A stretch of 64,000 nt of DNA. It comes from Caldicellulosiruptor changbaiensis (GTDB lineage Bacteria; Bacillota; Thermoanaerobacteria; Caldicellulosiruptorales; Caldicellulosiruptoraceae). The position numbers and the translations under genes are program-made. The stretch lies in NCBI RefSeq assembly GCF_003999255.1, contig NZ_CP034791.1:369501-433500 (forward strand), read 5' to 3'. The notes under the pieces were generated by a model. The model was given only the letters and a program-made list of their open reading frames with translations, was not told the DNA's origin and did not search any database. Below, piece after piece: positions 15,461-19,953 of this stretch (position 1 is the first letter of the stretch; each line of letters starts with the position of its first letter).

Positions 15461-16465
15461 TTATAAAAAGATATATCCTAAGAAGATCAAGTATAAAACC
15501 CCACCAAACAAAAGTGCAATTGGATTTACAGATTTTTTAATCTTAACCCATGTAAGATTTAAAAGAGCAGACATAAATGCCAAAATAGCTGAAACCATTG
15601 TTATACCTTTTAAATTCCATGGTGTAAATATTATTCCAAACACAACTGGAACAGAGGATTGAAATACCATTGCACCTGTGATATTTCCGAGGGCAAGAGT
15701 GTCTTTATTCTTTCCAATCCAGATAATAGAATTTAGTTTCTCAGGTAGCTCTGTTGCTATAGGTGTAATGATTATTGAAAGTATTAATGCAGGCACACCA
15801 ATCAGCATCGCAACCTTTTGGACATAATCAACAAATAAATGAGCGCCATAAATTATCAAGAAAAGGGAAAATAATAGCTGTATCAATATCCACAAAAGGT
15901 TATTAGGAAGTTTTAAAAACCTTGTAAAGTAAAGTTGTTCTAACTCTTGTCCTTCATCATTATCACTCTCATCTGCAAGTGTCTTTTTTGCATATATAAG
16001 ATAAGCTACAAACAATCCAATTGCAATTATTCTTCTTATAACTTTATGATTGTGAATAAATGTTGTCAAAACTGCAATTCCATATACAATGAGAAAATAA
16101 GTAAGGTCACGCTCAAATACACTCAAGTCAACATTCATCTTCAATGTCCTTTTTCTAAAAAGAGTGTAGACTATTACAGCAAGTCCAGTTATGAAAAAGG
16201 CCAAAGTACCGAGCATAAAAGGGGCGCCGGCAATTGCCCCAATACCAACATCATGTGAGCTTTCTCCTTTGGCAAACAGAATTGCAATAATAGGTATTAT
16301 GGTCTCGGGCAGAGCAGTTCCAACCGCTGCCAGGATACTTCCAACTGCCCCCTGTCCTAAGTTCATCCTTTTGCCAAACCATTCAACCGCATTGGTGAAA
16401 AAGGTACATCCAAATAGGATTACAACTAAGGAAGCAATGAGTTTTATAACATATCCAACTACCAC
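15461..16465 (-). CDS. Na+/Ca2+ exchanger family (CaCA) membrane protein
   Basis: The 334-residue protein has about ten membrane segments in two halves. Each half holds an alpha-repeat motif, AAVGTALPETIIP near residue 45 and ITPIATELPEKLNSIIW near residue 245, with the acidic residues that bind the cation in CaCA exchangers. The central acidic loop (DESDNDEGQELEQ) is a plausible metal-sensing loop. The start is GTG with a GGGATGG site. It lies 116 bases after the P-type ATPase gene on the same strand; a weak TTGACA-containing promoter may lie in the gap, so it may be co-transcribed or separately expressed. The ion is probably Ca2+ but Mn2+ is possible given the neighbour's riboswitch. Confidence 0.82.
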   Translation of the reverse strand: MVVGYVIKLIASLVVILFGCTFFTNAVEWFGKRMNLGQGAVGSILAAVGTALPETIIPIIAILFAKGESSHDVGIGAIAGAPFMLGTLAFFITGLAVIVYTLFRKRTLKMNVDLSVFERDLTYFLIVYGIAVLTTFIHNHKVIRRIIAIGLFVAYLIYAKKTLADESDNDEGQELEQLYFTRFLKLPNNLLWILIQLLFSLFLIIYGAHLFVDYVQKVAMLIGVPALILSIIITPIATELPEKLNSIIWIGKNKDTLALGNITGAMVFQSSVPVVFGIIFTPWNLKGITMVSAILAFMSALLNLTWVKIKKSVNPIALLFGGVLYLIFLGYIFL

Positions 16466-16581: not shown

Positions 16582-19254
16582 CTAATTTCCTTTATGTTCA
16601 TCTACAAAAAAGTGGCGAGTTATATATTTTACTACTTCTACAATGGGTATTATGGAAATTGAAGCCAGAATTACAATTGTCCATTGAGTAAAACTTAAAA
16701 CAGCAAGCCTAAATATTTCTCTCAACTGAGGAACTACTAAAACCACGGTTTGAAGTGCAAATGAAGCAATAAACGCAAGATTTAGATATTTATTAGAAAA
16801 CACCCCCATTTTAAACAATGAATTTATATTTGAACGAACATTGTAGGCATGGGTAAGCTGTATAAGACTTAATGTCATAAATGTCATAGTTATAGCAACC
16901 TTTGTATCATAGAATTTGCTTCCAATAAAAAATACCAAAAGTGTTATCAGGCCCTTTAAAAGGCCTTGATAGAGAATCGAAAAGCCAAGACCACCTGCAA
17001 AGATATTCTCAGAAGACTTTTTAGGTTTTCTTTTCATAACATCACTTTCTGCCTTTTCTACGCCAAGTGCCAAAGCTGGGAAAGTGTCAGTCACAAGGTT
17101 TACCCAAAGGATGTGTATAGGGTACAATACTGTCCAATTCAAAAGGGTTGCCAAAAACAGCGTGACAACCTCACCAATGTTTGATGACAGCAAAAACTGT
17201 ATTGCTTTTCTGATGTTATCATATATCTTTCTTCCTTCCTCAACTGCTGCAACAATTGTTGCAAAGTTGTCATCAGCCAGAATAATATCAGAAACACTTT
17301 TTGTAACATCAGTTCCTGTAATTCCCATTCCAACTCCAATGTCAGCCGCTTTCAAAGCAGGGGCATCATTGACACCATCACCTGTCATTGCAACTATTTT
17401 ACCATGGTCTTTCCATGCTTTGACTATTCTCAATTTGTGCTCAGGAGAAACTCTTGCATATACTCGTACCTCTTTTACTTTTTCTTTTAAAGTCTCATGG
17501 TCTAACTTCTCAATTTCAGTGCCTGTCAAAACTTGAAGGTTTTCGGCTTTATTTGTATCAATTATTTTCAAGTCTTTTGCAATAGCTAAAGCTGTGTCTT
17601 TATGGTCACCTGTTATCATAACAGGCAAAATTCCAGCATCATAGCAAACCTTGACAGCATCATACGCCTCTTTTCGAGGTGGGTCAATCATGCCAACAAG
17701 TCCGACAAAAATTAGATTATCTTCAATTGTGTTTTTGTTTTGAAGCTGAGTTTCATCTATTTCTTTATAAGCAAAAGCTAAGACTCTTAAGGCATTTGAA
17801 GACATTTCTTTATTTGCCTGCAAAATTTTGTTAATAGCTTTTTCATCAAGAGGAAGTATCTCATCTTTTATCATTATAAATCTGCATTTGTCAATTATCA
17901 CATCAACAGCACCTTTTGAAAAAACCACAAGGTTTTGGTCATTTTTAACCTCATGAACTGTTGTCATCATCTTTCTTGTAGAGTCAAATGGTATTTCATA
18001 TACACGCTTCATTACTTTCTCAATAGCATTTTTGTTGAGTCCCTTTTCATAAGCAAATTTTACAAGCGCAGTTTCTGTTGGGTCTCCAATAAATTTTGGC
18101 TGTTTGTCTATTAACTCCATTTTGACATCGTTGCAAAGAGCCATTATCCTGAATAAAATCTTTGTGGTTGTGTCTTCAAGGTCGAGATTATCTGATAAAT
18201 TATCGTTGCAATAAATTTTTACAACATTCATCTTGTTTTGTGTAAGAGTACCAGTTTTATCTGTGCAGATGACCTCTACTCTTCCCAGAGTTTCTATTGA
18301 AGAAAGCCTTCTGATAATAGCATTTCTTCTTGCCATTTTTTGCACACCAATTGCAAGCACAATGGTAACAATTGCAGGAAGACCTTCGGGAATTGCAGCA
18401 ACAGCTAATGATACTGCTGTTAAAAACATCTCAAATACATCTCTTTTGTAAAGAACTCCTGTGATAAAGACAATAAATGCAATTGCTAAGATTCCCACAG
18501 TTAGATACTTTCCGATTTCTTCTAACTTTTCATGAAGGGGTGTTTTAGTCTCTATGTTAGATTGGATATTCACAAAGTTGGCAATTTTGCCTATCTCTGT
18601 TTTCATACCTGTTGCAACAACTACACCTTTTGCCCGACCGTATGTGACAACTGTACCCATAAAAGCCATATTGGTTCTTTCTGCAATAGGCGAAGATTGG
18701 TCTAAGATTGCATTTGCATCTTTTTCAACAGGAATAGATTCGCCGGTTAAAGCGGACTCGTCTATTTTTAGGTTGTAACTCTCAACAAGTCTTAAATCTG
18801 CTGGAACAATGTCTCCTGCCTCAATTTCAACTATATCTCCGACTACAAGCTCATCTGTCTTGATTTGCATAAGATGACCATTTCTATAAACCTTTGCATA
18901 AGGCATATTGAGTTTTTTAAGTGCTTCTATGGCCTTTTCAGCTTTTAGCTCTTGTGCAACTCCAAAGACAGCGTTAATAATCAAAACAGCAATAATTATT
19001 GCAGCATCCGCAGCCTCGCCAAGAAAGATTGAGATTATGGCTGCAGCAATTAATACAAGTACCATTACATTTTTAAACTGTTCCACAAAAAGGGAAAATA
19101 TTGACTTTTTCTTTCCTTCTTCAATAATGTTTTTTCCATATAGTTTTAGTCTTTGCTCAGCTTCGTCAAAAGCAAGACCATTTGGACTTGTTTTTAGATT
19201 TTCAATCACTTCCTCAATGCTCTTTGAATGAAAATTAAAACTTTGTTGGATCAA
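16582..19254 (-). CDS. P2-type cation-transporting ATPase (Ca2+/Mn2+ efflux)
   Basis: This 890-residue ATPase has the P-type order: N-terminal cation_ATPase_N domain, actuator motif LTGES, the ion-site motif AAIPEGLPAIVT in M4, phosphorylation motif DKTGTLTQNKM, and hinge motif GDGVNDAPAL, followed by six C-terminal membrane helices. The PEGLP motif is that of SERCA/PMCA-like Ca2+ and Mn2+ pumps. The frame stays open upstream, but GGAGGTG before a TTG at 19254 fixes the start; an upstream ATG at 19365 lies inside the terminator hairpin. The leader carries a yybP-ykoY Mn2+ riboswitch, so Mn2+ export is the most likely physiological role. Confidence 0.9.
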   Translation of the reverse strand: MIQQSFNFHSKSIEEVIENLKTSPNGLAFDEAEQRLKLYGKNIIEEGKKKSIFSLFVEQFKNVMVLVLIAAAIISIFLGEAADAAIIIAVLIINAVFGVAQELKAEKAIEALKKLNMPYAKVYRNGHLMQIKTDELVVGDIVEIEAGDIVPADLRLVESYNLKIDESALTGESIPVEKDANAILDQSSPIAERTNMAFMGTVVTYGRAKGVVVATGMKTEIGKIANFVNIQSNIETKTPLHEKLEEIGKYLTVGILAIAFIVFITGVLYKRDVFEMFLTAVSLAVAAIPEGLPAIVTIVLAIGVQKMARRNAIIRRLSSIETLGRVEVICTDKTGTLTQNKMNVVKIYCNDNLSDNLDLEDTTTKILFRIMALCNDVKMELIDKQPKFIGDPTETALVKFAYEKGLNKNAIEKVMKRVYEIPFDSTRKMMTTVHEVKNDQNLVVFSKGAVDVIIDKCRFIMIKDEILPLDEKAINKILQANKEMSSNALRVLAFAYKEIDETQLQNKNTIEDNLIFVGLVGMIDPPRKEAYDAVKVCYDAGILPVMITGDHKDTALAIAKDLKIIDTNKAENLQVLTGTEIEKLDHETLKEKVKEVRVYARVSPEHKLRIVKAWKDHGKIVAMTGDGVNDAPALKAADIGVGMGITGTDVTKSVSDIILADDNFATIVAAVEEGRKIYDNIRKAIQFLLSSNIGEVVTLFLATLLNWTVLYPIHILWVNLVTDTFPALALGVEKAESDVMKRKPKKSSENIFAGGLGFSILYQGLLKGLITLLVFFIGSKFYDTKVAITMTFMTLSLIQLTHAYNVRSNINSLFKMGVFSNKYLNLAFIASFALQTVVLVVPQLREIFRLAVLSFTQWTIVILASISIIPIVEVVKYITRHFFVDEHKGN

Positions 19255-19340: not shown

Positions 19341-19388
19341 AAAAAAGACTTTTAACATGTGACACTTAACATCACATGTTAAAAGTCT
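19341..19388 (-). terminator. riboswitch-controlled terminator of the cation ATPase leader
   Basis: On the minus strand a perfect 17-bp stem (arms 19372-19388 and 19346-19362, 9-base loop) is followed by five T. The 5' arm contains CTTTTAAC, which is also the 3' strand of the riboswitch P1 stem. The two structures therefore exclude each other. Confidence 0.88.
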
Positions 19389-19491
19389 CGCACGCCCACG
19401 TCTTTTGATGGGCCCTTATCCCCAGAGAAGGTAAAAAAACCTTCTCGCGAATGTTGAGGATAAGGCTTTTGTGGTGCTACTCCCTTTTAAC
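19378..19491 (-). ncRNA. yybP-ykoY manganese riboswitch aptamer
   Basis: Read on the minus strand, the element opens with GTTAAAAGGGAGTAGC and closes with GCGAGACTTTTAAC. GTTAAAAG and CTTTTAAC pair to form P1. Between them are a long hairpin (GCCTTATCC / GGATAAGGGC, containing CTCAACATTCGCGAG) and a short one (GCCCA / TGGGC). The GGGAGTAGC and GCGAGAC blocks at the two ends are typical of yybP-ykoY elements, which bind Mn2+ and commonly control P-type ATPase and exporter genes. Metal binding should stabilise P1, free the 3' arm from the terminator and switch the pump on. The identification rests on motif recall and base pairing, not on a covariance search. Confidence 0.82.
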
Positions 19492-19574
19492 ATAAACAAA
19501 GGAAATAGCAAAGTTATAAATAGTGATTAATGTATTAAAAATCTTGTTAAAAATTTTATTAGACACTATTCTTT

Positions 19575-19830
19575 GTTAGGCTACATTCAGCCTAACTGGG
19601 TGTAACCCCACACCCTCTCTCCCCTCTGCTAACGCTTTGGGGAATACTTTCTAATTCTTTTTAGTTAGTTAACTCCTTTATGCACACCATTGTTTTGGCG
19701 CCTAACTATGCAAGGTTTGATAACCTTACAGTGAGCGAATTCCACCGAGGGGTTTTCAACCTCTGTGCATAAATTCATCGTCCTTCGAATTAAGAAAGTA
19801 TTAAGGTCTAAAACCTTTCTTATTATTTGT
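19575..19830 (+). ncRNA. candidate structured RNA, unassigned; strand uncertain
   Basis: This stretch is crowded with pairing segments: GTTAGGCT / AGCCTAAC, GGGTGT / ACACCC, CCCC / GGGG, a 10-bp stem TTTATGCACA / TGTGCATAAA enclosing three smaller hairpins, a possible pseudoknot AGTTAG / CTAACT, and a final AAGAAAG / CTTTCTT hairpin before a T-rich tail. A promoter-like TTGTTA-17-TATTCT lies at 19544-19572 on the plus strand, which favours plus-strand transcription. No ORF is plausible. I could not match it to a known RNA class; a partial likeness to the cobalamin riboswitch core is not backed by a B12 box. Confidence 0.4.
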
Positions 19831-19953
19831 CAACTCTTTTATATCATAATTCTACATTAAAAAAAATAAATTTTCAAGTCGTTTTGAAGATTTGAGTAAA
19901 AGCTTTTTCTGTGTAAATTTAACCATAAAGTCCATATTATTTCAAATTAGAAA

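Follow-up and report, generated by a model that had tools for sequence, protein, structure and literature searches.

The leader of a P-type ATPase gene in Caldicellulosiruptor changbaiensis (contig NZ_CP034791.1) is very probably a Mn2+ riboswitch of the yybP-ykoY class, in a form that lacks the P2 helix and works as a transcriptional ON switch. The element lies on the minus strand of the window—the whole stretch of 64,000 nt that was analyzed—where the sequence between 19493 and 19341 reads AUGUUAAAAGGGAGUAGCAC...GUGCGAGACUUUUAACAUGUGAU...GUCACAUGUUAAAAGUCUUUUUU. An earlier note, made from the letters alone, had described yybP-ykoY blocks and a P1 stem at this place, and all of these parts were found there. 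A DNA-similarity search supplied relatives from all 11 congeners, from a sister genus carrying two copies, and from one distant genome, and a covariance model, R1, was built from a 12-sequence alignment, A2, with the structure P1, P1.2, P3a, P3b, and P4. The parts of the element are:

19377..19493, minus strand: probable yybP-ykoY (Mn2+) aptamer, P2-less three-way-junction form (115 bits with R1; covariation in A2; L1 and L3 blocks common to RF00080 elements)
19484..19491, minus strand: P1 5' strand GUUAAAAG (from the sequence; 99% of its cells paired in A2)
19378..19385, minus strand: P1 3' strand CUUUUAAC, common to the terminator 5' arm (from the sequence)
19478..19483, minus strand: L1 5' side GGAGUA, metal-site loop (invariant in A2)
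19386..19389, minus strand: L1 3' side GAGA (A2)
19466..19473, minus strand: joining strand CACAAAAG, 8 nt in place of P2 and too short for a hairpin (A2; comparison with P2-bearing elements)
19414..19465, minus strand: P3 (P3a 19465-19456/19423-19414; P3b 19446-19440/19431-19425)
from 19455, minus strand: L3 block (AACAU...)
19394..19413, minus strand: P4 hairpin (covariation)
19346..19388, minus strand: intrinsic terminator hairpin of 18 bp with a 7-nt loop, competing with P1 (arms 19388-19371 / 19363-19346; present in relatives)
19341..19346, minus strand: terminator U-tract UUUUUU (from the sequence)

The leader folds at -68.3 kcal/mol vs -36.9 in shuffles (z -7.8), and both of its characteristic loops follow the class. 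Specifically, the L1 consensus (GGGGAGUAG... / ...GAGAC, between P1 and P1.2) appears here as AGGGAGUAG / GCGAGAC, and P3 carries the internal loop L3 (UCAACAU / CUGG) as CUCAACAU / CUGGGG. In A2, 98.7% of cells are paired under the five-helix structure, and 13 pairs changed on both sides (vs 2.5 in shuffles and at most six in slid controls), among them 7 of the 10 P3a pairs and 3 of the 7 in P3b, such that covariation backs all five helices. The loops are invariant or nearly so across the same relatives (L1: GGGAGUAG, AGAC; L3: CAACA, CUGG).

Assignment to the family depended on the model used. The earlier note had proposed a covariance-model search as its check and a missing match as grounds for refutation, and Rfam RF00080 was blank at every threshold tried: at its gathering score (45 bits), across the whole genome, and even at E <= 10 in a small region and with the locus searched together with others. 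Taken formally, this goes against the class assignment; the model of the P2-less form, however, recovers the window element and RF00080 elements together. R1 recognizes elements from the same bacterial class that RF00080 had picked up on its own, ahead of UPF0016-type and other genes (E 5e-11 to 0.03 in 100 kb), and L1 (GGAGUA / GAGAC) and L3 (CAACAU / CUGG) match RF00080 elements of that bacterial class located before UPF0016, P-type, and other genes. By this cross-recognition the window element is homologous to yybP-ykoY, from which it differs by the 8-nt strand in place of P2, and RF00080 is blind to it because that model expects the absent helix. Other Rfam models at lax thresholds returned chance matches only (e.g., manA on the opposite strand). 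Riboswitch element, terminator, and pump are kept in 11/11 sampled congeners and in the sister genus (the pump partly deleted in one congener), and the class named in the earlier note has good support from homology, covariation, and this conservation.

The same evidence bears on whether the leader might be a constitutive terminator or attenuator only, without a ligand and with a chance likeness to yybP-ykoY. The blank RF00080 search fits such a reading; the compensatory change seen throughout the five helices alongside an invariant L1 and near-invariant L3, the cross-recognition with independent RF00080 elements, and the recurrent link to metal exporter genes speak against it. We consider it highly improbable, and the covariation in the aligned sequences has largely refuted it already.

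The proposed ON switch follows from the overlap of the two competing structures. The P1 3' strand was said to double as the 5' arm of a terminator, and 19378-19385 does lie wholly inside 19388-19371, so P1 and the terminator—correctly placed in the earlier note, though counted there as 17 bp rather than 18—are mutually exclusive, as is expected of a transcriptional ON switch; the overlap recurs in many distant elements. Without ligand, ViennaRNA favored the terminator state both at 37 C (-56.5 vs -44.9 kcal/mol) and at 75 C, a guessed temperature for a thermophilic host (-12.9 vs -7.2 kcal/mol), which makes OFF the default. Without metal, then, the 18-bp hairpin and U-tract would form and transcription would end before the ATPase gene, while with enough Mn2+ L1 and L3 would dock around the ion and hold P1 closed. 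Closed P1 would sequester the terminator 5' arm and let the ATPase be expressed, read-through would also yield the exchanger encoded behind it, and the two proteins would export excess metal. Homology, covariation, and conservation lend good support to the predicted exclusive terminator of the ON type; the identity of the metal and the direction of switching in vivo are inferred. Against the ON reading, a review describes members of the class as OFF switches.

Compared with canonical four-way RF00080 elements such as L. lactis yoaB, the window element has the same P1, L1, P3, L3, P4, P1-overlapping terminator, and downstream exporter genes, but an 8-nt strand instead of the P2 hairpin, a difference on which the earlier note was silent. 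Nor is its architecture new, since a three-way-junction yybP-ykoY element has been published before the Mn2+/Ca2+ P-type ATPase gene mgtA of S. pneumoniae, the aptamer of which is reported also to bind Ca2+ (PMC9495176, on NAR 2019, doi 10.1093/nar/gkz494). The two systems share a three-way element before a P-type ATPase with metal turning transcription on; they differ in lineage and in the CaCA exchanger gene behind the window pump. The mgtA aptamer introduces another reading, namely that the leader responds to Ca2+ at least as well as to Mn2+ and that the operon, with its SERCA-like pump and Na+/Ca2+-type exchanger, serves to export calcium or both metals together: that aptamer is reported to have a higher affinity for Ca2+ than for Mn2+, though Mn2+ activates transcription more (PMC9495176). 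The genes and the upstream feature of the locus are:

16582..19254, minus strand: P-II type cation ATPase, TTG start, RBS GAGGAGG 19273-19267 (TIGR01116 726.7 bits, over cutoff; Pfam; closest solved chains 6zhf and 9euq, LMCA1/lmo0841)
15461..16465, minus strand: CaCA-family exchanger, second gene of the putative operon (PF01699; adjacency in the genus; relatives with their own Mn2+ riboswitch)
19849..19877, minus strand: candidate promoter TTGAAA-17-TAGAAT (in three congeners a similar sequence immediately precedes the riboswitch)

TTG 19254, preceded by GAGGAGG, is the most likely start of the ATPase, and the whole switch then lies before the ribosome site. That it would be called a calcium P-type ATPase by sequence holds: TIGR01116 is over cutoff, the nearest solved chain is the Listeria Ca2+ pump LMCA1, and a full-length alignment shows the domains and catalytic motifs of LMCA1 and SERCA, from both of which it differs in that its gene stands under a Mn2+ riboswitch. 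Like SERCA, it retains the M5 Glu (SERCA E771 position), which LMCA1 has lost. The pump also keeps the SERCA-like motifs PEGLP, SNIGE, and NLVTD, which favor the Ca2+ reading. Across pumps, the ion-site residues of M4/M5/M6/M8 separate neither riboswitch-linked from other pumps nor Mn2+ from Ca2+, since Ca2+ pumps and putative Mn2+ pumps have them in common; an attempt to read ion specificity from them gave no signature, because pumps linked to a riboswitch are spread over SERCA-like, LMCA1-like, and other P-II types. The further suggestion that the pump exports Mn2+ is therefore supported only through association: the riboswitch and precedent (L. lactis YoaB; the C. difficile orthologue) argue for it, while the ion-site residues do not indicate Mn2+. 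Mn2+ movement by this pump is plausible.

A second P-II ATPase in the same genome, 46% identical to the pump, has no riboswitch, since R1 finds one element only; named relatives from genome contigs were distant (31-47% identical) and had no R1 element. In one congener (L003; G003:C1:2295605-2298001) the ATPase is internally deleted, with flanking riboswitch and exchanger retained, which shows that the switch need not always serve the pump.

The exchanger, which the earlier note had passed over, is the most useful further finding. Its gene begins 116 bp behind that of the ATPase, an order kept in the genus, and the two would be co-transcribed. In the sister genus (G012), an exchanger 75% identical to it occupies another locus, where a P2-less riboswitch of its own (L020) precedes it, and homologues 44-50% identical stand directly downstream of an RF00080 element in seven more genomes (G074, G083, G121, G155, G040, G086, and G158), giving eight genomes from five families in which it directly follows a Mn2+ riboswitch. 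A more distant CaCA protein is also behind an RF00080 element (L118), and L134 likewise has a CaCA exchanger directly behind a Mn2+ riboswitch. Many homologues stand without an element, including those of the class relatives G014-G018, in whose exchanger flanks R1 found none, and the viral collection yielded no exchanger relative. The protein resembles NCX_Mj in its two alpha repeats (GTALPE / ATELPE) but differs where Asn81 and Asp240 align. Membership of the CaCA family favors the Ca2+ reading, while the differences from NCX_Mj, the presence of the exchanger behind P2-bearing, RF00080-type elements as well, and the occurrence of P2-less elements before genes for Mn2+ such as UPF0016 and TerC count against it; on balance the Ca2+ reading is unlikely, and Mn2+ remains our preferred ligand. 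Recurrence behind Mn2+ riboswitches suggests that these proteins are probably a subfamily of Mn2+ exporters annotated as calcium antiporters, and "Na+/Ca2+" exchanger annotations within it should probably read Mn2+ exporter.

Upstream, the promoter-like TTGAAA-17-TAGAAT of three congeners lies ~50 nt from P1, whereas the window has ~325 bp more between the two. Its inner part (19511-19651) shares 88-91% identity with the terminal sequence of several TnpB-like-gene elements of the same genome, some of which adjoin recognizable serine-recombinase sequence, and at least three further copies genome-wide have this end. To judge by these matches, 19511-19835 (approximate) looks like a decayed IS607/TnpB-type insertion between conserved promoter and riboswitch, and the remnant may retain an omega-RNA end without the TnpB gene.

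While the riboswitch itself is ordinary, the form missed by RF00080 and the exchanger subfamily are useful by-products. Strict filters, so that neither scan is a census, left R1 carriers in 42 of 398 genomes of the phylum and RF00080 matches at E <= 0.001 in 62 of 398, only eight of which reached the gathering score—a score cut-off, not a structural feature. Twelve genomes are in both lists, and 30 of the 42 R1 carriers (7 of these 30 from the window's own genus) have no RF00080 match, which means that the Rfam model overlooks P2-less Mn2+ riboswitches that are widespread. The P2 helix of the four-way junction is absent in the window element and in every A2 relative, and its hairpin is absent in 28 of 61 parsed distinct elements (sampled with both models, hence biased in proportion, and not counting the window's genus, which was unparsed); P2 is therefore optional in the class. 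P-type ATPase leaders were 12 without and 2 with P2 (one of the latter judged by eye from where the protein begins), and UPF0016 leaders 6 without and 20 with, an association that is a lead and not a result because the sample is model-biased and related genomes are counted separately. Were P2-less elements a functional subclass tuned to both Ca2+ and Mn2+, with pump and CaCA exchanger as a joint export operon for the two metals, this preference for ATPase genes would be a trace of it; we give that proposal little credence.

Two further loci deserve mention. At L077 (G408:C1:1962882-1965050), a P2-less Mn2+ riboswitch is followed by an apparent IS110-type transposase and then an exchanger gene fragment. 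At L031:1509-1626, a yybP-ykoY element is matched by Rfam SSRC10 (Streptococcus sRNA 10, RF02617; 41.6 bits, below gathering score), which raises the possibility that this "sRNA" family is in fact a Mn2+ riboswitch.
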